DNA of 64,000 bases. It comes from Eubacterium sp. GTDB lineage: Bacteria > Bacillota > Clostridia > Oscillospirales > Acutalibacteraceae. The position numbers were made by a program, and so were the translations under genes. The stretch lies in contig JAFLRZ010000003.1 of NCBI GenBank assembly GCA_022511225.1, positions 62,001 to 126,000 of the forward strand, read 5' to 3'. Below are positions 50,283 to 64,000 of the stretch, one piece after another; the first letter of the stretch is position 1; each line of letters starts with the position of its first letter. Below the pieces are notes generated by a model. The model had not been told where the DNA came from. It saw only the letters and a list, made by a program, of their open reading frames with translations, and made no database searches.

Positions 50283-53200
50283 TTATGAGCCAAGAGTCTG
50301 AAGAAGATCAATCAGGCTTGCGATTACCTTATCAGTATCGCCCTGAAGCTCATTAAGAACGCTGTTTACTACTTCTGAGATAGAATCATCTGCACCGCCG
50401 ATAAGTCCGCCGATGAGCGAGCTTATATTCTTGTAGTTATCACCTGTATTGATTGTAACAATGAGGTATCTGAGAACTGCAATAAGTGTCTCTGATGAAT
50501 CACCCTCAACGAAGATTCTTGCGCCGTATGTTGCAGCCTGAGAAGCACTTACGATTGTCTTGCCGTGGCTTGCAAGCTGGAGCCAATCAATGTCGTTGAG
50601 CTTAATTCCAAGAGGAGTATCCTTAATCTTGATTAAGCCGAGAACGCTATTGAGAAGCGGTACGATATTATCTGCACCGAGTACAGGCTTCAATGTCTCA
50701 AAGATATCGTAGATATCAATGTTCAAGTTTGTAATGCCAACCTTACCAAGGATTGAGTTAAGATCAACGTTAAGTGAATCAAGAACTATATCCAAAATTT
50801 CGTTGACATCTACTATCGGTCTCATAGCATCAAGAAGTGCTGAGATCGGAGTGAGGAGATTATTGATTATCTGGCAAAGACCGTCATTACCGATAAAGAG
50901 TGCAAGGTTTGGAATCATAGCTGCTACAGTCTGAAGCGGAGCAGAAAGGATATCCTCTACCTTATCCCAAAGAGGATTGATGATATCAAGAAGGATTGCA
51001 TCATACTCTTCAAGGATGTCTTCTCTGTACTGATACTGTGTCTTTACGTTGTAGCATGAGAATGCCTCAAGAAGAGGAACGATAGAAGCTGTATATCCGT
51101 TTGATCCCGGAATTCTTACGATATTGAAGATACCGAGTGATGCGCTGTTGAGAAGTACATCAAGAACACCGTAGATTGGACGAAGTGCAGCAACGAGAGC
51201 GTGCATAAAGCTATCTCTGTCTGTTACACCCCACTTAAGTGAGTCAGCTGATACGTTCTTCCAAGAGCCTGCTGATCTGATTACAGAAGCAGCGCTTTCA
51301 AACTTCTGACCGTACTTCTCATTTACAAGAAGGTTTGCAACGTTCTCTGTTGAGAAGTCAATGTCTGTCTGAGCAAGGAGTTCGGTAAGAGTACCGTCAC
51401 CAACCTTAACACCTTCTACAGCACCGTAAAGTCCTGTAACGAGTTTGCTGATGATGTCATCCTTGTAAAGTGCCTTTGCGATTGTCTCGTTGAGATCAAG
51501 GAGTGAGCCGATAAGTCCGTCAAGCATTGGAGGAAGATTCTTAAGGAAGTCAACGTCTATACCTTCCGGATAAGAGAAGCTGTATGTTCCTGTCTCATAG
51601 CTTGAGTAATCCCAGAATGCATTTGCAGGACGACCTGCAAGCAAGTAGAATACTGCTGCGACAATCTGATCTCCTGTTGAAGAGCCGATTGTTGTGAATA
51701 TGCTCTGAATGATTGACTTAAGCATATCATTTTTAGCGATAGCATCAATGCTGCAGATGAGGTTCTTAAGAACTTTTGCGTTTGCTACAAGTGTATTTGC
51801 TACGTAGCGGAGAACTGTTACTAATACCTTACCCTGATCAACGTTCTTAACAATCTTACCTGTTAAGAAGTTGCCCTTAGCATCTGTTGCCTTACTTGTG
51901 TAGGTGCCCTTAGTGCCAAGGCTGATAAGTGCGTTCCAGTCAATATCCTGAAGCTGAAGCTTTGAGAGATTCTCGTTGCTCTGTGAAGCGAGGATCATAT
52001 TAACAATCGGAATAATAACATCCTCGATGTTAAGTGTTGTAAGGTCTGAAATGTCAAGGTTAAGCACACCTTCGTCAAGACCGATAAGTCCTCCAACTAA
52101 ATCGCCGAGAGGCATACCTAATATATCTTCAAGTATGTCGTCAAGCTTGAGAGTATCTACTGCTTCGTATACGAGCTGAGTTACAGGAGCAAGAAGATTG
52201 CTGATAAACTGTGCAAGTCCGTGAGCATCAAGATACATTGCGATGTTTGGAAGAAGCTTTGTAAGCTCGCTGATTGGATTTGCTGCAAGCTTGTTAAGGA
52301 ATGATTTGCTGTTGTCGCCTACAAGCGGATTGAGAATATCGAGAAGGAGATTATCCTTTGCAGAAGCAACGTCACTCTGATACTGCTTGTAAGTCTTAAT
52401 GTTTTCGCATCCAAGAGCCTCGAGAAGAGGAATGATTGCGCTGTTGTAAGCATTTGTACCCTCAATCTTAAGGTCTGTAAGTACGTCCTTAAGTGATGTA
52501 AGGTCAAGCTTAAGCTCTGAATTCTTTGAATCCTTGCGGTTGCTTGGATCTTCTTTGAACGTAGCGGTGAATACGCCATTCTTCATCTGGTAGCTTACGT
52601 TTACCTTGATAGGAACGTCACCGTCAGAAATTGTAAGAGTTGTCTTTGTTGTCTTAACCTCGAGTGACATAATCAACTCGTAAACAACGTTGTTAAGCTC
52701 TAATGTGCCTTCGTTAAGGAATACTGCAAGAACACCTGATAACGGACGAAGAACTGCTGCAAGAGCATTTACGAAGCCCTGCTGAGCCTTGTCTGAGCCA
52801 TCCTTGAAGCCCCAGTTAACGTTCTTAACCTTGCTCCAATCACTCTGAGCCTTAATTGTGTTAGCTGCTGAAGTGTAGGTCTTGCCGTAGCTCTTATCTG
52901 TAAGGATATTAGCAATGTCCTTTGTTGAAGAAACAATTCCGAGTCCCTTAAGAGCATTCTTGATTGTTGGGTCTAAGCCGTCAAGTGCACCGTAAAGTGC
53001 AGTTGCAATTGTTGTGATAAGCTCGTTCTTAAAGAGGTTCTTGCTGATGATGCCCTGAAGGTCTGTAGCACCAAGATCCACACCGAATGAGCCGAGAAGC
53101 TTAAGTACTGAGCCGATAGCATCGTCAAGCTGAGTAACAGCTGAGTCTGCCATTGCCTTTGTAACTCCCTTAGGATAAGCAAATTTCTCTGTAAGTTCCT

Positions 53201-56200
53201 GGAGATACTGAGCGAAGGTCCAGTAAACAAGTGTTGGGCTGTCTGTAACCTCGAGTACCTTGTTGAGGAGCTCAAGTATATCAGATGAAGTAATCTTACC
53301 TGCCTTGAGTGCGTCGATAATCATTGTAACTACGTCATTGTTAATAAGCTTAGCAAGAGCAGTTAAGGTGTCGCTATCAAGGAGTGTTTCAAGTAAGTAA
53401 TCAAGTAAGTATACGAGTGCAGCAGCAGGTGTTTCAGCATTTGCAAGCTTGCTCCAGCTAATCTGCTTTAACTGGATACCTGTGTCTGCAAGTAATGTGT
53501 TAACAATAGGAATAATGTTTTTACCGCACAGGGTGTATCCGCTGATTTTGATATTCTTAACGTCAGAATACTTGTTAATTTCCTTAGCAATATTCTTAAT
53601 CGTCTTTGCAAGAGTAGGTGAAGTAGCAACAAGCTTGCTGCTCTTGATGGTGAATATCTTAGCAAGTCCTGTAAGCTCTTTGTTTATAGGAGCGAGTGCG
53701 CCCTTAAGGATTGAAGCTATTGTAGGAGTGCTGTCGTCATCAAGGATTCCTGCGATACCCTGAATTGATCTGATAAGTGTTGAAACCGGACTTGTAAGAA
53801 GTGAATCAAGCCAGCCTGAGATAGGAGCCATAAGGCCGAGAAGCACTTCGTCGTGGTAGCCGTTTGTAAGCTTAGCGTACTGCTTAGCTGTATCAACCTT
53901 TATGCCGTTCGGCTCAGCAAGTGCGCTGAGAATTGGCATAAGAACTGTTCCGTACCAGCCGGTATCTACAAGAACTACACCAAGGATTGATGTAACGAGT
54001 CTGAGTGAAGCAGCAAATGCATTGAAGAATGCATCCTTATCGCCTGCTTTGATACCCCAGTCAAGGCTGATCTTGTAGTTGCCTCTTGAGGTCTTAGCAG
54101 CTGCGTTGTGCCAGCAGTTGTACTTTGTAAGCTGCTTAGCAACCTTTTCGTAGCCGTCAAGTCTTACACAGATTGCATCAGGTGAAATAATACCTTCGAT
54201 TGCTTCAGCAATTAAGTTGTATTTTGCTGTAGAGCCATTTGCAAGCTTGTGTGTTGTAGTGAAATCGCCAAAGAGATTTTCAACAACGTTTTCAATGAGA
54301 AGGAAGGTTTCAACCATAAGTCCTGTCAGAGAATCGTTTGTATAAACCTTCTTTGCATCTACATTATTCTTGGAATCAGCCTTGTGTGTATCCTTGCCGG
54401 TAATGTAGTACAGGTATTTGTCAAGCAGATTGCCGAGCTCTGTGTAGCAGTCATTGCCGATATATCTGCTGAGGAATGAAACTGCACCTGCAAGAATATT
54501 GCTTGTAGAGTTAAGGCTGAAATCATTAAGTGTACTATCTGAAAGGAGAGAAGCTACAAGCTTATCGAGGTTATTGATAAGATCTTCTGCATTGCTTAAC
54601 TCTTTCTTTGTATAAGTCTTTGAGTTAGCCTTTGCATTTTTAATTGTAGGAGCTTTTGATGAAGCCTTTTTAGTGTTTCCTACAAGTGAGTCACCGCTGA
54701 TTGAAGCACCGCCGTTGATGTTGTCGATAAGACCTGTGATTACTTCAATAAGAGTGTCTATGTTAGCAATTAAGAAGTAAGCGTGATCCTTTGAAAGACC
54801 GGTAAGACCGTTTGCTCTCTTAGCGAATGTGAAGGATATATCGTCCTCACGCTCAATCTGGAACACACCGTTGAATAAATCTGTGATAATGCTGTCCTCA
54901 CCGAGACCGCCAAGTGCATTGAGAAGGCCTGCGATGATAGGAAGATTATTAGAAATCTGATTATCAGTTGAAATTACGTTGTTAAGTAAGCTGAATATAG
55001 CATTGAGCCAATCTTCTACGAAGATGCCTGCGAAAGCATCAAAGATACCAACGCTTCTGTTAGGATCGTCACTGCCTGCGTATGCCTTGAGAGTCTCGAG
55101 GTCAGTGTTTAATGTAGTCTTAACGTCCTTGCCGTTTCTGTCCTGCATATCCTTAGATATGATTTTGCCCTCGTAGCAATATGTCCATGCGTTCTTAGCG
55201 ATGCCGTACTTTTCTGCAGCGAGGTCTTCCATAATATCAAAGAGCTGCGGAATAGCTACAAAGACGTTGTTAAGACCGGTTCCAATTCTGCTTCCTGATG
55301 TAGAATATCTCTCTGCGCCTACGAGTGCAGGATCAGATACGAATATATCAATTGACTCTTTTAAGAGAGTAGCAATTTCTGTGATAACTTCACCAAGGAT
55401 GTTTCCGAGTGTATTATCGCCTAATGCATCAACCAACATACCCGGAATATCAGAAATGTTAATATCGCGGAGCGCCTTATCTGCAATGTAGATACCTGTA
55501 AGAACCGGTACGTTGCTTTCATATTCCATATAGAGAGTGAATACAGCATCAGGATTTGCTTCAAGTACTGTAGCAAGATCGCTGTTTGTTTTACCCATAT
55601 AAGTGTATGTAGCAACGCCGTTAACGTCTTTTCTTGTAAGCTTGTTGCCGTTCTGATCCTCGGCAAAGTAATGCTTTAAGTCGCTGCCGGTGATGGTGTC
55701 AACGTCTAATCTCTTAGAAACAAAGTTCTGGATACCGTCCTCATCAGTAACGACATCCTTAACCTCTACAATACCAAAGTCGTAGTAGTCAATACCCTGA
55801 GCCTTTGAACCTTCAAAGAGCCAGTGAAGTACGTTAGGAAGAAGCTCGTTGAGATCCCATGCGAGTCTTGTGATACCGATTTCGGAACCAGCCTCAGGAA
55901 GGAACTTCATAATGATTGAACCGCTGAAAATACCGAAGAGCTCAAGAGGAGGCTCGTCGCCTTCACCGTGGATAACGAGTGGAAGAATAAGCTCGTCAAT
56001 TGCAACTACAAGTACAGGAACAAGCTCTACAATTGTAGCAATCGGAGCATTGATAAGTCTTGACCATACGTCGCTGAGCGCAGTGGTAAGATCAACTCTT
56101 GTACTGAGAAGGCTGTTAACCATATCCTCAACAGTCTGGCCTAAAAGCTCCATGCCGATAACCTTGACAACAACTGTGTTAAGGAGCTCGTTAAGAATCT

Positions 56201-58154
56201 TAGTACCAATCTGATTTGTTAAATCAGCAGTGTTATTGAGAATATCCTTCTGCTTATCTGTGAGGTTAACCAGAACAGCACTTGTTGCAGTGCTGTCAAG
56301 GTAAGCAACAATATCAATGATAAAGTTCTGATTTGATACCTCGTCAGCGATTGAGCCCTGAATACCTGTAAGGCTTGTTGCAACCATTGAGTAAGCATAC
56401 TCTTCTGCTGCAGCCATATACTCTGAAATTGCAGCAAGATCAGGCTCATAGCCTTCCTTTATGATAGGCAATCCGTCATCGCCGGCGATAAGTGAAGAGC
56501 CTTCTGTTTCAAAAGCAGAATCCGTTGACGGAATCAAAGCACTTCTTAAGTTCTGCATGTAATCATTACTTGCAGGGTAACCGGTGATAAGTCTGAAATA
56601 ATCTGCTGTTGCTGTGCCCTTGAGCACTGCAGGAAGAGTAATATCGTAGTTAAGGTTAAGGTGATCAATATTTGTAGTCTTGCCTGCAAAATATGAATCG
56701 GCAATTTCTGCCTCTTTACCTTGTACGTTTGTAGCGTTTACAGCTAAACCGAGAGACTTGAGGTCTGCCTTGGAGAAGATGCTTGCATCAACACCTGTCT
56801 TGCCGTTAGGAAGAGTAGCTTTAACCATCTTGAGGAATTCATCGTAGCTGCTTACTTTGCCTTCCTTCATTGCAATACCTGCAAGTGCTTCCTTATAGTG
56901 AAGAGGAAGAACCTGTGTTAAATAAGAAAGGGCAAACATAGGACGGAACGATTCAAGTGCAAAGTTTCTTGTTTCGTCGTCGAGCTCAATATTAGGATCG
57001 CCAGCTAACAAAAGTCCGATAAGACCGTCAACCGTAAGCTCAATATCACCAAATATTTGGAGCTTGTTAATTCCTTCAACGAAAGGCTCGAAGAGGAGGT
57101 CCATACAATTTGCAGGAGTAACGTCCTCGTCAACGTCTACAGGAATAAGAACACCAAGACCGATTGGGTCAATACCGCCGTGAACATCTACTATGTTACC
57201 TGTTGAAGTAATGAGGGCACGGTAACGGTAAGTGGTAATATCATTTATACCTGCACCATAGTAGTAATAAAGAATCTTGTCAATTCCGTCAATGTTGATT
57301 TCGCTTGCAGAAATTCCGTAATCCTTGAGCTGAGCATTGTAGCCCTTGCATAAGCCGTCAATAATAGTCTTATCTTCAGCTTCTACAGCGAAATCAAAAT
57401 CTTCGAGCCAAGAAAGAGGAGACTCGCGGTAATCAACGCCGTTAGGATTTTCAGCGTTAAACTTGCTGCCATACTTGTTAATTACCTTCTCGATAGAAGT
57501 TCCAAGCTCTGAAAGAGGGAGGAGTGCATCCTTCCATTCTTTTAAAGTAGCTTTTTCTTCTGATGTGAGCAAGTCGCTGTTTGCATACGTATCGCAAATA
57601 GAAATAATTGCGTAGTATGACAAAGCATTATCTGTGTTGAGATAATCGAAGTTGCTCGGGTTATATCCCGGATAATACGCATTTACAAAGCTCTGCTGAT
57701 CGGTGTAAATGACTTCACCGCCTGCAATAGAGCCTGCAGCTGAGTTAATAAGCGGGATAAGCATAGGCTGTAAACCGGCAAGAGCTTCGCTCAATGTGGT
57801 TACTTCTGCAGCAGCATCCTTGACAGCGGCACGCTTTTCTTCGTCAGTAAGCTTGCTGACTTTTGTGCCGTTAGCCTTTGCATACTGTGCATAAAGCTGT
57901 TTAGCCTTTTCGGGATTGTTTTTGGCATACTTGTCGCAAATCGGACCGCCGATTACGTCGATGCCAAGGAGAACACCCGGCAAAAGATCGTCTGCCAGAC
58001 TGTTCAGTGCGTCAAAAGCATCCTGTGCTTTTGCGTCGGTAGTCCATATGCTCTTACTGTTGTCCTGCGCAAAAGCAGTGATTCCAACAGAGCAAGTGGT
58101 AACTACCATTACTACAGCTAAGAAGAAGCTGAGTAGTTTTTTGCTCGTTCTCAT
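50283..58154 (-). CDS. Giant secreted helical-repeat protein, unknown family
   Basis: 2623-residue protein that I do not recognise. ATG 58154 is chosen because AAAGGAG lies 9 bases before it (ATG 58160 is too close). A Sec signal peptide (KKLLSFFLAVVMVVTTCSVG, cut after AFA, about residue 29) is followed by long Leu/Ile-rich amphipathic helices with short beta segments. The C-terminal half holds at least three related units of roughly 410-530 residues. Recurring landmarks are a Trp-Gly turn before an ALVAALRP-like helix, IVPLLEAF/IIPLLEAL, PNLALFIGNDGLCQII, DIDW near a PLLNSVLGL-like helix, and FSYPEG/FAYPKG. I see no LPXTG, SLH, dockerin or catalytic motif, and Cys is rare. It is probably extracellular and divergent from a related giant gene. 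Confidence 0.85.
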   Translation of the reverse strand: MRTSKKLLSFFLAVVMVVTTCSVGITAFAQDNSKSIWTTDAKAQDAFDALNSLADDLLPGVLLGIDVIGGPICDKYAKNNPEKAKQLYAQYAKANGTKVSKLTDEEKRAAVKDAAAEVTTLSEALAGLQPMLIPLINSAAGSIAGGEVIYTDQQSFVNAYYPGYNPSNFDYLNTDNALSYYAIISICDTYANSDLLTSEEKATLKEWKDALLPLSELGTSIEKVINKYGSKFNAENPNGVDYRESPLSWLEDFDFAVEAEDKTIIDGLCKGYNAQLKDYGISASEINIDGIDKILYYYYGAGINDITTYRYRALITSTGNIVDVHGGIDPIGLGVLIPVDVDEDVTPANCMDLLFEPFVEGINKLQIFGDIELTVDGLIGLLLAGDPNIELDDETRNFALESFRPMFALSYLTQVLPLHYKEALAGIAMKEGKVSSYDEFLKMVKATLPNGKTGVDASIFSKADLKSLGLAVNATNVQGKEAEIADSYFAGKTTNIDHLNLNYDITLPAVLKGTATADYFRLITGYPASNDYMQNLRSALIPSTDSAFETEGSSLIAGDDGLPIIKEGYEPDLAAISEYMAAAEEYAYSMVATSLTGIQGSIADEVSNQNFIIDIVAYLDSTATSAVLVNLTDKQKDILNNTADLTNQIGTKILNELLNTVVVKVIGMELLGQTVEDMVNSLLSTRVDLTTALSDVWSRLINAPIATIVELVPVLVVAIDELILPLVIHGEGDEPPLELFGIFSGSIIMKFLPEAGSEIGITRLAWDLNELLPNVLHWLFEGSKAQGIDYYDFGIVEVKDVVTDEDGIQNFVSKRLDVDTITGSDLKHYFAEDQNGNKLTRKDVNGVATYTYMGKTNSDLATVLEANPDAVFTLYMEYESNVPVLTGIYIADKALRDINISDIPGMLVDALGDNTLGNILGEVITEIATLLKESIDIFVSDPALVGAERYSTSGSRIGTGLNNVFVAIPQLFDIMEDLAAEKYGIAKNAWTYCYEGKIISKDMQDRNGKDVKTTLNTDLETLKAYAGSDDPNRSVGIFDAFAGIFVEDWLNAIFSLLNNVISTDNQISNNLPIIAGLLNALGGLGEDSIITDLFNGVFQIEREDDISFTFAKRANGLTGLSKDHAYFLIANIDTLIEVITGLIDNINGGASISGDSLVGNTKKASSKAPTIKNAKANSKTYTKKELSNAEDLINNLDKLVASLLSDSTLNDFSLNSTSNILAGAVSFLSRYIGNDCYTELGNLLDKYLYYITGKDTHKADSKNNVDAKKVYTNDSLTGLMVETFLLIENVVENLFGDFTTTHKLANGSTAKYNLIAEAIEGIISPDAICVRLDGYEKVAKQLTKYNCWHNAAAKTSRGNYKISLDWGIKAGDKDAFFNAFAASLRLVTSILGVVLVDTGWYGTVLMPILSALAEPNGIKVDTAKQYAKLTNGYHDEVLLGLMAPISGWLDSLLTSPVSTLIRSIQGIAGILDDDSTPTIASILKGALAPINKELTGLAKIFTIKSSKLVATSPTLAKTIKNIAKEINKYSDVKNIKISGYTLCGKNIIPIVNTLLADTGIQLKQISWSKLANAETPAAALVYLLDYLLETLLDSDTLTALAKLINNDVVTMIIDALKAGKITSSDILELLNKVLEVTDSPTLVYWTFAQYLQELTEKFAYPKGVTKAMADSAVTQLDDAIGSVLKLLGSFGVDLGATDLQGIISKNLFKNELITTIATALYGALDGLDPTIKNALKGLGIVSSTKDIANILTDKSYGKTYTSAANTIKAQSDWSKVKNVNWGFKDGSDKAQQGFVNALAAVLRPLSGVLAVFLNEGTLELNNVVYELIMSLEVKTTKTTLTISDGDVPIKVNVSYQMKNGVFTATFKEDPSNRKDSKNSELKLDLTSLKDVLTDLKIEGTNAYNSAIIPLLEALGCENIKTYKQYQSDVASAKDNLLLDILNPLVGDNSKSFLNKLAANPISELTKLLPNIAMYLDAHGLAQFISNLLAPVTQLVYEAVDTLKLDDILEDILGMPLGDLVGGLIGLDEGVLNLDISDLTTLNIEDVIIPIVNMILASQSNENLSKLQLQDIDWNALISLGTKGTYTSKATDAKGNFLTGKIVKNVDQGKVLVTVLRYVANTLVANAKVLKNLICSIDAIAKNDMLKSIIQSIFTTIGSSTGDQIVAAVFYLLAGRPANAFWDYSSYETGTYSFSYPEGIDVDFLKNLPPMLDGLIGSLLDLNETIAKALYKDDIISKLVTGLYGAVEGVKVGDGTLTELLAQTDIDFSTENVANLLVNEKYGQKFESAASVIRSAGSWKNVSADSLKWGVTDRDSFMHALVAALRPIYGVLDVLLNSASLGIFNIVRIPGSNGYTASIVPLLEAFSCYNVKTQYQYREDILEEYDAILLDIINPLWDKVEDILSAPLQTVAAMIPNLALFIGNDGLCQIINNLLTPISALLDAMRPIVDVNEILDIVLDSLNVDLNSILGKVGITNLNIDIYDIFETLKPVLGADNIVPLLNSVLGLIKIKDTPLGIKLNDIDWLQLASHGKTIVSASQAATYGARIFVEGDSSETLIAVLRYLIVTINTGDNYKNISSLIGGLIGGADDSISEVVNSVLNELQGDTDKVIASLIDLLQTLGS

Positions 58155-58263
58155 AAACATTCTCTCCTTTACATATGATTTAACGGACTTTTACATCCGT
58201 TATATACGCACGGTACAAATGCCCAATCACAGTATATTGTGTACTTGGTGTATTTTTGTTCAT

Positions 58264-58279
58264 AAATTGTACACAATTT
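58264..58279. promoter_or_regulatory. Palindrome in the leader of the giant minus-strand gene
   Basis: AAATTGT-AC-ACAATTT, perfect 7-bp arms. It lies inside the predicted 5' leader of the 2623-residue protein gene. It could be an operator or RNA hairpin. Confidence 0.45.
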
Positions 58280-58329
58280 AGTGGTTAGAAAGCGCACCTA
58301 TACTCGCACGCACGAACAAATACAATTTA

Positions 58330-58358
58330 TTTATACCAAATTATATAAGCGAAGTCAA
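58330..58358 (-). promoter_or_regulatory. Promoter of the giant minus-strand gene
   Basis: On the minus strand TTGACT (58358-58353), a 17-base spacer and TATAAA (58335-58330). Predicted start near 58323, leader about 170 bases. Confidence 0.7.
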
Positions 58359-58526
58359 TACCCTTTTTGCAATTTTTGAACAAATTGTTAATAATTCGAA
58401 AATTTTTGAACGTCACGGGGGAGTATATCGCATATTCCGCTTTGTATAAGTGCAAAAACAAACAAGCAATATTCGCTAAAAATTTACAAAAATCGAACAA
58501 AAATTCGTCAAATTTCAACAGACACT

Positions 58527-58582
58527 TGTAAAGTGAATACACTTTACATTAACCGAATTTTTGTAAAGCGCTTGTGCTTTAC
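58527..58582. promoter_or_regulatory. Two adjacent inverted repeats with a shared TTGTAAAG arm
   Basis: TGTAAAGTG-AATA-CACTTTACA (58527-58548), perfect 9-bp arms. GTAAAGC-GCTTGT... GCTTTAC (58563-58582), perfect 7-bp arms. Both left arms read TTGTAAAG, 35 bases apart. They lie between the two divergent promoters and are probable regulator sites. Confidence 0.55.
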
Positions 58583-58720
58583 CTGGAGTTGTAACCACAA
58601 CATCTTGTAAAATTAATGAAAATTATTTGTGAACAAAATATTAACAATTGGTCACATTGACAAAAATTTAACATCGTTTTTGGACAATTTGCCGATTTTG
58701 ATTACAGACTCCTTACGGCA

Positions 58721-58749
58721 TTGACTTTCGTGCTTATTTATGTAATAAT
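58721..58749 (+). promoter_or_regulatory. Promoter of the giant plus-strand gene
   Basis: TTGACT at 58721-58726, a 17-base spacer and an extended -10 TGTAATAAT ending at 58749. Predicted start near 58756. Confidence 0.72.
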
Positions 58750-58784
58750 CTTAGTGTGTTTAATGAGCACTTTGCGCCCTTTTT

Positions 58785-58895
58785 CACCTATGGGGAGCTA
58801 TTCCACTTATGCTAATTCGGATTGCCCGATGGTCAGAGATCACGACACATAGGCTGGGACGTAATTGTGCTGGTACACTAAATAAATGTATTTAG
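58785..58895 (+). ncRNA. Possible structured 5' leader, unassigned
   Basis: Within the predicted leader, CCTATG (58787-58792) pairs with CATAGG (58848-58853) and encloses TCGG/CCGA and TGGTC-AGA-GATCA stems. Just before the GGAGG ribosome site a second hairpin CTAAATA-AATG-TATTTAG (58878-58895) occurs. I compared it from memory with c-di-GMP, c-di-AMP, THF, guanidine and fluoride riboswitch cores and found no match. It may be a new element or chance pairing. Confidence 0.35.
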
Positions 58896-58915
58896 AATGG
58901 AGGCAAATAAATACG

Positions 58916-61900
58916 ATGCATAAAAAAGCTAAAAAGTTTTCCCGTAAATTGCTTGCTCTCTTAATGGCAATTGTTATGGGTATTACTTGCTTCAGCGGAG
59001 TGCTTTCTGCTTCAGCTGCATCAAAAGATGTTAAGTATCACGATGAATATGTAGAGTATAACAATCTTGCTTGGAGAGTTCTCTCTGACGAGCAGACTGC
59101 TACAGCTCTTCTCGACTATCTTGACATCGTGCTTGCAGACGTAGGTCCGACCATTACAAAGGGTCTTGGTAAGTCACTCTCTAACGTTAATCTTGGTACA
59201 AGCGCAGTTAAGCTTACATGGAATGCAAATGCAAGACAGATCAAGCTTAGCGTAATCAGTCTTATCAACGCAACGATTGATGTTAAGTTACACAGCGTTG
59301 ACGAATTACTTGAAACTATCGAAAGCGTAGCAAGCGTTATTGATAGATTCGGTAACCTTCTCGGCGACGCAGGTAACCTTCAGCTCACTGCTACAAGCGG
59401 CATGAGAAGAGCTAAGAATTCTTCAATAGAAATTCTTACAGCTGTTATCGGTCTTCTTCAGAAGAACTCAGCTGACTATAATGGTAAAGACGTACTCGGT
59501 CAGTTTCTTCGTGGTAATTTCGGCCTTGGTACTGTAGGAAACACTGCAAACCTTGATGTTTACAAACTTGTCGGTGACATGATTGGTATCGACAGTAATA
59601 CATTTAAGGCAGATCCTGTCTACAACCTTGTTAAGCACATCCTTATGACCAATACAAATTGGTTTACAGATGAAGAAAAGGCTGCTTACAACGACGGCTC
59701 TAAAACATTTGTATTTGATGAAGTTCTTCTTGAGAAGATGACAACACAGCTTCTTACAAAGATCAACGCTGAAATCACATACAAGGGTGCTGATCAGGCT
59801 ACAGTTTCTTCCAGAGTTCGTTACGAAGAGATTAAGGCTAAGGCTGAGGCATCAGGCACAACCTTTAAGCAGGCTGCTGCTTCTCTCGGTTATGACCCTG
59901 AAATCGCATACACAGATGACGGTAACGTATACATCTTTGTATATGGTACAAACGATGACGGTTCTGTAGCAGACAATGCGCAGAAGGTTTCTCTTACAAA
60001 GGGCGATAGCTTATTCAAGTTCGGCTTGGATGCTCTCAAGGTTGCTTGGAAGACAGCTCTTGCTCCGACACTTGAAACTCTTCGTGTAAACTATGACGTA
60101 GATCGCGGTCACGGCTCAAACTTTGATAATGCATACTATTATTGGTATCTTGCAAACCTTGCTTCAACTACTCCTTGGAATACCAAGAATCTTGATGCAA
60201 TGTATGCAGAAGCTAACGTTAAGGCTTGGGCAGCAGACGTTGCAAAGAGCTACGGCGCTGCAGACGCTGACGAATTCTTAGCTTGGGTTAAGAACAACTA
60301 TGAATTTGATCGTGACGCTGACGAAGATTCAAAAGGCGCTTGGTCTGACATTGATGAGACAACACTCTTCAACAAGATCAGATACAGCCCACTTGTAGAT
60401 TACTACTTCGCTAAGCAGGACGACGCAATGAAGACAGGTCCTGTAAACCTTTACTTCATGCAGACAGGTGCTCCTAATATCGAAGCATTCTTCTCAGATT
60501 CTAACTTAGCAAAATACAGCTCATTAGGTGCTGGTCTTAACGATGCTCTTGTTGCAGCAGTTAAGGACCTCTTCGTGAACAGAGATAATGTTTACGGCGA
60601 TGCAAAATATCCTGAATTAGCTACAACAGGCAACTTCACCAAGATCGACGCTAATGCTGTTACAAAAATAGCTACAACATTAACAAAGAATGCAGCTGCT
60701 GTTATCGAATACACAGCTGATTCAATGGATGCTAATATCCTTAAGGCTTTCCACGATAATCATCCGGGAGAAGCTCTTTCAGAGTCAAATCTTGAAGAAG
60801 CTATGCTTCCGTTACTTATCGCTGTTATCGGACAGATTAACCTTAACGGCTATAAGATGGAGCAGTACATCCACCCAGAAGATTGGGATGCTTGTAAGGA
60901 CGCAGAGGGCGTTATCTTCGTAGCTCTCAGAGAGTATCTCTCATACATCCTTCCTAATAAGGACTACAACGTACTCGTTTCTAAGGACAATAACGATAAG
61001 TTCAACGTTACATTAGAGGGTACAATTCTTCCAATGGCTCGTGATGCAGTTGTTTACGTAATGCAGGGTTATGTTCCTGTAGACGGTAAGGACGGCAAGG
61101 CTTATGATGTATATAAGAGACCTGTTGACGATCCTACAACAATCTTCGAGCTTCTTAACTCAGTAGTTGCTTACTATGGCGGCGAGTACACATTCAAGAA
61201 CGGCAACATTGCTAAGAGCGTAGGCGCTATGGCTGTTGGTGCACTTCTTGGTGTATGCGATGACAATGGTAAGAGCTTAATCACTAAAGAAAATACACTT
61301 TGGCAGAACATTGACTTAGTTGCTAAAAAGCTTATGCCTGTACTTGGTACACTCCAGTACGGTGACGCTGGCAAGAAGGGTGAGTTCAGCTCAGAGAAAC
61401 TTATCTGGAACGATATCGTTAAGGGCGTACTCAACATTGCTGACACTACAACAAACAACGGTGTTGAAATGGGCGGTGTTACAAACTTCATTTATCAGTT
61501 CCTTACAATCGTTTCTGCAGAGCCTATCCAGACAACTCCGATTATCGGTACTGTTTACGATTTCCTTGCTGACTTCGTTAACGGACTCTTTGGTGCTCGT
61601 TACTCAAGCAGAAGAAATCATGACAATCAGGATTGGGTAAATGTTATTCCTGCAAGAACATCTGCAACTCCGTTTGATGCTCTCCTTAAGAAGCAAGTAC
61701 TTGGCGGTACAGACGGTAAGAACGTAGGTGCTATTCAGAAGTTCATCTGTAACATCGGTGAAGCTGCAGGCTATTCAAACGTAAAGGTTCCTGACTCAAT
61801 TATGAGAGGACTTATGTTTGCAATCACAGCAGTTCAGAGCTTCGTACCGGGTATCCTTGATTCTATCGGTGATCACGACCTCAGAACAGCTTCTGCAGAG

Positions 61901-64000
61901 TTTGCTTCAATGACAGTTCAGGGTTGTACTGTTAACAAGCAGGTTGATACAGACCTTAACTTCACTAATGACTCAATCGGTATCAACAACGGTTACGTTA
62001 AGAATGGCGGAGTTGAGCAGATTGGTAGATATTGGATGCAGATTACAGGTGCTACAATTGTGGCTTCTGATAACGCAAAAGCATCAATAACAAACATTCC
62101 AAGTCAGCTCGTAGCTCCATCTGAAACAGTTGCTCTTAAAGCACACGTAACATACGTTGGTGGCGACGATAATGCTACAACAGCTCACGCAGTTATCACT
62201 TATGATATCTATGAGAGAACTGCTGACGGCAACACAACAAAGCTTTATACAGGTCTTAAGACAAATGCTTACCAGTATCTCTCAGGTGAGCAGAGCTGGA
62301 GAGACGCTGTATATCCTCAGGGTGCCGGTGCGCATGCACTCAGCGCTGACTTCAAGAGCTCTATTACAAGCGATCAGTCAAACAAAACAAAGACTGCAGG
62401 CGGTTACAACATTTACTCTTCATCAAGAACAAACGATCTCTACATCAGCTATCCTGAGTACATTGTTATCGGTACAGCTAACCTTTATGAGATTAGTGAC
62501 TACCAGTTTAACGTATTCACAGGTGCTAACGGTACCTTTGGTAGTAACAAGTCAACTGACGGTCTCTACTGCTATGATGTTAAGACGGTTGTTAACGACT
62601 GGAACAACGGTAATGTAAACGTTAACCAGAACAATGCTATTCCTGTATTCGACAGAGTTACAGGTGACATTCTTAAGTATGGTCTTTATGACTATTCTAC
62701 AGACGGCGGTGTAACTTGGAGCCGTGGCCCTGCAGATGATAGTACCGGTGGTTGGAGCGAGTCTGATGCTTCAGCTGCAATTTCAGGTGCAGCAGATGGT
62801 ATGGGCAAGGTTCGTACCCACGTTGCATATACCTGGGATGAGGCATACAACAGCGGCATGATCGCAGCTCACCATAAGAATCCTAACACCGGTCTTTATG
62901 AGTACATTTATCTCCAGAACAGCAACGACAATCCTTATAGTGATGTTCTTAGCAGAATTTCTTGCCGTGGTCCTGTAGACGGTATCTACATCAACCCGAC
63001 GAAGATGACTATTCCTAAGGGCTACAACTATGAGACTACTAACAGTCTCCTCAATTATGACGGCTCAACACCAATTAAGGCCGGTTCATATCCTCTTCAG
63101 TTAGCATACTATACAAACTCCGGTGCAGGTACAATGAACAGAGGTTCTTGTACTCTCGTTATCGGTGCTAACGATGCTGCTGATGCAATTACAGAATCAT
63201 ACGACAGAATTCTTGACGTTCTCAACAGATACAGAGATCAGGACTACTTAGACATTTCTGTAAAGGAACCTGCATCTGATGCACTTCTTGCATCACTTTC
63301 AGCTCAGGCTGCAGTTATGACTCCTACATCAGCTGCTGCACTTTCTGACCAGACTGAGCTTACAGCTTCATACGATGTAGTTGCTACTGAGTATGGTGAT
63401 ACTGCATACAAGCCATTTGCTAACGTATCAGGTATCGCAGGTACAGTTTACTATGATGGTGTATTACCTGGTACTGTATATGCTGATGCAACAATCGGCA
63501 AAGACAACCTCCTCTACTTCGATGAGGCTTGCACAATGCCAATCTACTCAAGCTCACGTCTTACAAAGGCTGACGTTACTAACGGTAAAGATGCTGCAGG
63601 TAAGGCTGTAATTGCTGATGAGAAGGGAGTTTACTATCTCCTCAATGCACCTCATTATGCAACAGAGTGGACAGAATCACCGAACACTTACTTGGATTCT
63701 ACAGGTACGATTTCAAAGCCTGTTCATTGGAGAACAATTGTAAAGAAGAACGGTCAGCCTGTTCAGGATAAGAACGACAACGGCGAGCTTCTTTACGAAA
63801 AGATTCAGTATGTATATCGTGACAAGGCAGGCGTCAAGGTTAACTCAGACTTTGTTTGGGCTTGTAAGTTCCCTGTTACTGCATACACATTAATTCCTAA
63901 CGATCCTGACGGAAAGAAAGACTACCGTGGTAGAATTACTCAGATGTCAGACGAGCTTGCTTGGATCCTCGAGCAGGTAGAGGTTGCAATTAACCCATCT
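58916..64000 (+). CDS. Giant secreted protein, partial (runs off the window), unknown family
   Basis: Open from ATG 58916 to the last base (1695 codons, no stop). GGAGG is at 58899-58903. The Sec signal peptide (RKLLALLMAIVMGITCFSGV, cut near ASA-A, about residue 34) resembles that of the divergent giant gene. Residues ~40-690 are mostly helical; a stretch near 625-687 (MLPLLIAVIGQI ... PEDW ... VALREYLSYI) resembles the PLLNSVLGL...DIDW...VLRYL module of the minus-strand protein. From about 1000 on the sequence turns beta-rich, like Ig or beta-sandwich domains (VALKAHVTYVGG, FDRVTGDILKYGLYDYSTDG), with a helical spacer near 1420-1465. No anchor motif is seen before the edge. Confidence 0.85.
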   Translation, partial: MHKKAKKFSRKLLALLMAIVMGITCFSGVLSASAASKDVKYHDEYVEYNNLAWRVLSDEQTATALLDYLDIVLADVGPTITKGLGKSLSNVNLGTSAVKLTWNANARQIKLSVISLINATIDVKLHSVDELLETIESVASVIDRFGNLLGDAGNLQLTATSGMRRAKNSSIEILTAVIGLLQKNSADYNGKDVLGQFLRGNFGLGTVGNTANLDVYKLVGDMIGIDSNTFKADPVYNLVKHILMTNTNWFTDEEKAAYNDGSKTFVFDEVLLEKMTTQLLTKINAEITYKGADQATVSSRVRYEEIKAKAEASGTTFKQAAASLGYDPEIAYTDDGNVYIFVYGTNDDGSVADNAQKVSLTKGDSLFKFGLDALKVAWKTALAPTLETLRVNYDVDRGHGSNFDNAYYYWYLANLASTTPWNTKNLDAMYAEANVKAWAADVAKSYGAADADEFLAWVKNNYEFDRDADEDSKGAWSDIDETTLFNKIRYSPLVDYYFAKQDDAMKTGPVNLYFMQTGAPNIEAFFSDSNLAKYSSLGAGLNDALVAAVKDLFVNRDNVYGDAKYPELATTGNFTKIDANAVTKIATTLTKNAAAVIEYTADSMDANILKAFHDNHPGEALSESNLEEAMLPLLIAVIGQINLNGYKMEQYIHPEDWDACKDAEGVIFVALREYLSYILPNKDYNVLVSKDNNDKFNVTLEGTILPMARDAVVYVMQGYVPVDGKDGKAYDVYKRPVDDPTTIFELLNSVVAYYGGEYTFKNGNIAKSVGAMAVGALLGVCDDNGKSLITKENTLWQNIDLVAKKLMPVLGTLQYGDAGKKGEFSSEKLIWNDIVKGVLNIADTTTNNGVEMGGVTNFIYQFLTIVSAEPIQTTPIIGTVYDFLADFVNGLFGARYSSRRNHDNQDWVNVIPARTSATPFDALLKKQVLGGTDGKNVGAIQKFICNIGEAAGYSNVKVPDSIMRGLMFAITAVQSFVPGILDSIGDHDLRTASAEFASMTVQGCTVNKQVDTDLNFTNDSIGINNGYVKNGGVEQIGRYWMQITGATIVASDNAKASITNIPSQLVAPSETVALKAHVTYVGGDDNATTAHAVITYDIYERTADGNTTKLYTGLKTNAYQYLSGEQSWRDAVYPQGAGAHALSADFKSSITSDQSNKTKTAGGYNIYSSSRTNDLYISYPEYIVIGTANLYEISDYQFNVFTGANGTFGSNKSTDGLYCYDVKTVVNDWNNGNVNVNQNNAIPVFDRVTGDILKYGLYDYSTDGGVTWSRGPADDSTGGWSESDASAAISGAADGMGKVRTHVAYTWDEAYNSGMIAAHHKNPNTGLYEYIYLQNSNDNPYSDVLSRISCRGPVDGIYINPTKMTIPKGYNYETTNSLLNYDGSTPIKAGSYPLQLAYYTNSGAGTMNRGSCTLVIGANDAADAITESYDRILDVLNRYRDQDYLDISVKEPASDALLASLSAQAAVMTPTSAAALSDQTELTASYDVVATEYGDTAYKPFANVSGIAGTVYYDGVLPGTVYADATIGKDNLLYFDEACTMPIYSSSRLTKADVTNGKDAAGKAVIADEKGVYYLLNAPHYATEWTESPNTYLDSTGTISKPVHWRTIVKKNGQPVQDKNDNGELLYEKIQYVYRDKAGVKVNSDFVWACKFPVTAYTLIPNDPDGKKDYRGRITQMSDELAWILEQVEVAINPS

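Follow-up and report, generated by a model that had tools for sequence, protein, structure and literature searches.

A four-gene locus of giant secreted proteins in Eubacterium sp., probably encoding an enzyme-free cohesin-dockerin assembly whose docking loops differ between species

Layout and conservation of the locus

We analysed a stretch of 64,000 nucleotides (the window; G000:C23:62001-126000) from a Eubacterium sp. genome of 2.2 Mb that is 98.65% complete. It carries part of a conserved four-gene locus, in which the gene for one giant protein (left giant) points away from three genes that lie close together on the opposite strand and encode a second giant (right giant), an adaptor and a third protein. 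The features are listed below, with positions referring to the window.

50283..58160, minus strand: left giant; longest frame 2625 aa (2623 aa from the third codon), with signal peptide and alpha-rich repeats
50289..51770, minus strand: repeat unit 3 of the left giant, residues 2131-2624
51774..53243, minus strand: repeat unit 2 of the left giant, residues 1640-2129
53436..54152, minus strand: repeat unit 1 of the left giant, partial and degenerate, residues 1337-1575 (i-E 5.7e-15 with the unit-3 profile)
58161..58885, no strand: shared intergenic region, 725 bp between the longest frames, with two conserved non-coding blocks
58886..64000, plus strand: in-window part of the right giant, 1705 of 2231 aa, frame open at the window end
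59018..61880, plus strand: body of the right giant, residues 45 to about 999, mostly helical, family not found
61883..62215, plus strand: Ig-like beta-sandwich of the right giant, residues about 1000-1110
downstream of the right giant, beyond the window, plus strand: adaptor, about 370-390 aa depending on the choice of start, secreted, with cohesin-like domain, X-module and dockerin
after the adaptor, beyond the window, plus strand: third protein, 1125 aa, part masked, secreted, with a putative type-II-like cohesin domain

Both long frames described in the initial annotation, 50283-58160 (-) and 58886-64000 (+), are present and transcribed away from each other. The sizes given there, 2623 aa, 1695 aa and a gap of 761 bp, hold if internal ATG codons are the starts (the third codon of the left giant and the eleventh of the right), which is plausible for both, whereas the longest frames leave a gap of 725 bp. 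Blastn against the intergenic regions of relatives identified conserved non-coding blocks at about 58292-58409 and 58718-58840; in the longer matches the two blocks are ~70-85% identical to those of relatives, and each is positioned nearer to one of the two starts. A promoter-like TTGACT-17-AATAAT sequence is present at 58721-58749, such matches being no commoner than in shuffled sequences, and an Rfam search of the intergenic region gave no match.

Among 80 genomes of the genus, own genome included, 66 have a match to the left giant and 58 of these were counted as left giants. The eight excluded matches (G022, G036, G051, G060, G066, G074, G075 and G079) are module matches elsewhere or fragments, those in G022 and G060 possibly being true fragments. 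The right giant was matched in 54 of the 80, two by the tail only (G049 and G066), leaving 52. Both giants are present in 50 genomes (own included), on the same contig in 47 and on separate contigs in three, and the same-contig pairs are divergent in 47/47 cases; the pair is hence kept together in relatives. Eight genomes have the left giant without the right, which was not found elsewhere in these genomes either, and in seven of them the start of the left giant is at the contig edge or ≤640 bp from it. In G041 (L073/L133), a genome in about 3 contigs, the left giant is kept while no match to the right giant or adaptor was found.

Left giant, right giant, adaptor and third gene appear in this order in 26 of 40 fetched regions, which include some from genomes already matched in the search of named relatives. 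In two regions only the third gene is missing from the part fetched, whereas 12 are less complete. Eight of these 12 had been chosen as left-only cases, three run into the end of a contig, and in one (L057) the adaptor is genuinely absent; in that genome (G026) the right giant comes without a dockerin and without an adaptor. Moreover, the giant pair, the dockerin tails and the adaptor (with masked bases in G105) also occur at one locus in each of two other genera (G105 and G133), and G133 also has the third gene. The named relatives with a left giant (11 loci) are metagenome assemblies labelled as uncultured Clostridia, Eubacterium, Eubacteriaceae, Ruminococcaceae UBA7080, Candidatus Eubacterium faecigallinarum and, once, Bacteroides sp.

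Since the pair is conserved together, the idea of a jointly placed extracellular system with scaffold-like parts stands, and the right giant does have a docking module (see below); the system is, however, not two-part but comprises at least four genes. In those parts of the literature that we covered, neither a description of the four-gene locus nor a paper on concerted evolution of dockerins was found, and the initial annotation was right in holding that an undescribed extracellular system is present.

The two giants and the question of their kinship

Repeat units 2 and 3 of the left giant match each other (hhalign 100%, E 9.5e-75). The repeats are ~490 aa long and helical, with an AF2 model of residues 1640-2625 reaching a pLDDT of 84.1 and a pTM of 0.71. 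No Pfam match over cut-off was found for the left giant, family matches among 39 relatives of its repeat region comprised two single-member rows only, and neither a dockerin nor an anchor was found in it. The repeats define an unnamed helical module, which was detected in 19 of the 107 genera sampled from the family, in frames of up to 11,501 aa. The large repeat proteins of the same family (e.g. 8730 and 11501 aa) carry the module of the left giant but are encoded at other loci, and by eye the C-terminus of several of them is either a transmembrane segment or an amphipathic tail rich in Lys. Eight of the relatives (L114, L116-L119, L122, L129 and L130) have such a Lys-rich C-terminal tail in common, often preceded by NWFQ or similar (by eye), and this tail is possibly a membrane-binding or sorting signal.

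The right giant is 2231 aa long and continues to contig position C23:127578, 1.6 kb beyond the window. Its C-terminus, residues about 2075-2231, consists of an X-module followed by a dockerin and lies outside the window; the apparent absence of any anchor or signature from both giants therefore reflects that the window edge cuts the right giant. An AF2 model of residues 45-1110 has a pLDDT of 85.6 and a pTM of 0.80. For the body, Pfam gave no match, among 39 relatives two single-member rows were matched, and a search against PDB sequences returned nothing up to E 1.

It had been claimed that the two giants are relatives that share a module, with a profile match between them as the check. The signal peptides are indeed alike (profile 97.8%, E 1e-12), but that of the third gene also matches that of the left giant (95.8%, E 7e-9), and for this reason the likeness is no sign of kinship. 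Slices of both giants were compared using hhalign (572 slice pairs, 39-47 sequences per side). Set A1 of left rows comprised the window protein and 38 of the 46 others, chosen by coverage and length, and set A2 the window protein and 38 others. The claimed shared stretch (left 2497-2529, right 638-670) scored 8%, E 0.004 for one comparison, while in an earlier run with 11-12 sequences it had scored 10.5% and was there the best non-signal pair. In the 572 pairs the best non-signal match is another one, left 1676-1764 with right 807-908 at 37.8%. As whole profiles, the main bodies scored 7.2%, which is not significant and is at a different place from the claimed stretch. With no significant profile match outside the signal peptides, the claim of kinship falls by its own test. 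That the giants are homologous and build a single fibre or coat of two parts by way of a common module is therefore very improbable in our view: the divergent pairing is conserved and sub-threshold slice matches reach 37.8% compared to about 1% for non-signal control slices, but neither the bodies nor the claimed stretch gave anything significant.

Docking modules, dockerin loops and a candidate socket

The tail of the right giant matches that of the adaptor when compared as profiles (99.96%, E 3.6e-39). For the right giant alone, Dockerin_1 scores 17.2 bits (E 0.006), below the cut-off of 22.9, and it exceeds the cut-off (32.2 bits) in the genome scan only together with its neighbours in frame; among the adaptors, 16/34 match Dockerin_1 at E≤0.01. 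The adaptor family profile matches solved scaffoldin X-dockerin dyads (4u3s, 4wi0, 2b59, 3kcp and 5g5d; E 9.6e-13 to 2e-11), the X-module part of this match being a generic beta-sandwich for which NOMO2 and SdrD score too. By these matches the tails qualify as dockerins with two calcium-loop repeats.

Pfam Cohesin (PF00963) gives no match in the own genome; the cohesin assignments are based on family profiles. The N-terminal domain of the adaptor is recognised by Pfam Cohesin in 4/34 members (best 1.7e-6), and a scan of the genus, which detected the domain in 44 genomes, matched ten adaptor frames, 5 of them over cut-off. As a profile, this domain matches that of the third gene (83.5%, E 8e-6) and nine Pfam-recognised cohesins of the genus (57%, the left-giant control being 0.2%); against the PDB it matched no cohesin, the best match being a flagellin (E 0.06). 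For the third gene, Pfam Cohesin recognises the domain in 2/30, and the eight best PDB rows for its first 360 residues are all cohesins (E 0.001 to 0.095, one below E 0.01). Beyond the cohesin domain follow Cys-containing repeats and beta-type domains; in 18 frames read the gene has 759-1266 codons, and no anchor is evident by eye.

Alternatively, the locus could encode a scaffold for carbohydrate degradation, similar to a cellulosome or amylosome, in which the giants would serve for binding or as spacers. Scaffoldins have X-dockerin and cohesin modules of this type, and the genome has other dockerin proteins, one of which resembles a glycoside hydrolase by eye. However, no enzyme or carbohydrate-binding family was found over cut-off in any of the four proteins, the other six dockerins of the genome have a different, NAKD-type loop, and the cohesin-like domains are single only. 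The own genome has one adaptor-type domain and one third-gene domain, while 14 other matches to the third-gene profile cover N-terminal parts only; a multi-cohesin scaffoldin was not found by these profiles, which could miss remote cohesins. We therefore regard a carbohydrate-degrading scaffold as quite improbable. Likewise, no LPXTG or SLH anchor was found in the four proteins by family scan or by inspection of the C-termini.

Some neighbouring features may be mentioned here. Three loci of the genus, L036, L038 and L040 (G065:C18, G014:C15 and G013:C30), have several clustered Pfam-recognised cohesins that are absent from the genome of the window. A secreted protein of 2015 aa in the own genome (L082; G000:C45), by eye of the leucine-rich-repeat (BspA-like) type, has a NAKD-type dockerin, and similar tails occur elsewhere in the genus. 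Moreover, the third gene is followed by a gene for a calcium-type P-type ATPase (L001:12830-15520; TIGR01116 E 1.3e-192, below its cut-off), which is 80-85% identical in 5 of 19 downstream regions from relatives; dockerins require calcium, and the link to this neighbour may for that reason be more than chance.

Both dockerin tails were available for 37 loci, of which 34 were left after the repeats L044, L046 and L049 had been dropped. Over 12 dockerin-loop residues, identity between right giant and adaptor is 0.907 when both come from one genome and about 0.31 between species, an agreement within genomes reached by 0/10000 permutations; the corresponding values for the X-module are 0.558 and 0.29-0.31. 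The own adaptor is strictly nearest for 28/34 loops (with 4 ties) compared to 10/34 X-modules. The first-loop hexamers of the right giants are all distinct among the 34. Furthermore, the two loops of the right-giant dockerin are alike (0.871 excluding the fixed Asp, 31 loci; no second loop could be aligned for L058, L059 and L063), compared to 0.138 in 16 control dockerins. These controls also have 16 distinct first loops, and their identity between species is 0.242 for the first loop without the fixed Asp (0.179 here) and 0.387 for the second (0.157 here). Because the controls vary between species as well, what stands out is less the variation as such than the fact that two genes agree in each genome.

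Could gene conversion account for the matching dockerins, with the cohesin encoded elsewhere or nothing specific bound, and hence no private code? In four loci (L053, L054, L062 and L071) one dockerin seems to have been copied onto the other not long ago, the X-module is likewise more alike within than between species, and other dockerins of the genus vary in the first loop too. Against this, identical residues are encoded by another codon at 130/350 loop positions (0.371), close to the fraction for the X-module (515/1240, 0.415), which speaks against simple or recent copying in most loci. In addition, the right giant is nearer to the right giant of another species than to its own adaptor for 22/34 X-modules but for 2/34 loops, and the loops track the cohesin-like domain of the third gene, as described next. 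Taken together, we consider gene conversion an unlikely explanation.

Co-variation was examined over those 28 of the 34 loci for which rows of the left giant and the third gene were available as well; the left giant stood in for species distance, and the alignments are noisy. Given the left giant, loop distance correlates with the cohesin-like domain of the third gene (r 0.337, 0/5000) and not with the adaptor domain (r 0.057, 870/5000) or the right giant body (r -0.017, 2989/5000). The signal of the third gene is not exclusive, since the X-module also co-varies with the loops (r 0.258, 0/5000) and the third gene's domain co-varies with the adaptor N-domain (r 0.375, 0/5000), exceeding its correlation with the loops. 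When both giants, the adaptor domain and the X-module are all taken as covariates, the value for the third gene drops to r 0.211 (2/5000). The sign is the same in both clades taken apart, with r 0.506 (12/5000) for the third gene and 0.228 (506/5000) for the adaptor domain in a clade of 13 loci, and 0.289 (36/5000) and 0.019 (2148/5000), respectively, in a clade of 15. The cohesin-like domain of the third protein is therefore a likely candidate for the socket of both dockerins.

Proposed assembly and comparison with known systems

On sequence evidence, we think it rather probable that the four-gene secreted locus encodes a species-private cohesin-dockerin assembly of giant proteins; as a whole it looks like an assembly without enzymes whose docking loops are particular to each species. 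The right giant and the adaptor would plug their dockerins into the cohesin of the third protein outside the cell, and the third protein would in this way keep the large helical body within an extracellular structure. Dockerin surface and cohesin would co-evolve, giving each species its own fit. The left giant, a conserved partner in the locus for which no docking part was found, would act in the same structure, a role that we infer from its position at the shared control region. Its repeats are part of a broader family of modules, which some relatives have on long, apparently membrane-anchored proteins. Going further, the giants might be assembled throughout the genus by a docking code invented anew by every species, with plugs and socket changing together and neighbouring species of one habitat unable to mix parts, i.e. 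a molecular self-recognition code for the extracellular structure; this we find rather doubtful.

The locus resembles the cellulosomal scaffoldins, with their type II X-dockerin dyads and anchoring cohesins (4u3s, 2b59, 3kcp and 5g5d), in having an X-module beside a C-terminal dockerin and a putative type-II-like cohesin encoded nearby. It differs in that the tail is carried by a protein of 2231 aa whose helical body is unassigned and by a one-cohesin adaptor, and in that the locus has no enzymes, nor was a multi-cohesin scaffoldin or anchor found. Adaptor scaffoldins, small proteins with a cohesin and a dockerin, are a known concept. The small adaptor of the locus resembles them in having one cohesin-like domain and a dockerin, but its dockerin code is common to the giant neighbour and its cohesin-like domain is remote. 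Most, though not all, mesophilic clostridial cellulosomes are reported to have cross-species recognition residues in common (PMC5748583), while the loops here differ in all 34 species.

Cohesin-dockerin pairs have been described chiefly from complexes that degrade plant fibre, in which related species often have the same recognition residues. Here, plug and socket seem to serve enzyme-free giants, with two plugs that change in step and a candidate socket adjoining them, and the helical repeat module of the left giant recurs in very long open frames across the bacterial family. If true, the loci would amount to a naturally occurring collection of orthogonal docking pairs, and extracellular assembly private to each species could be tested on them directly.
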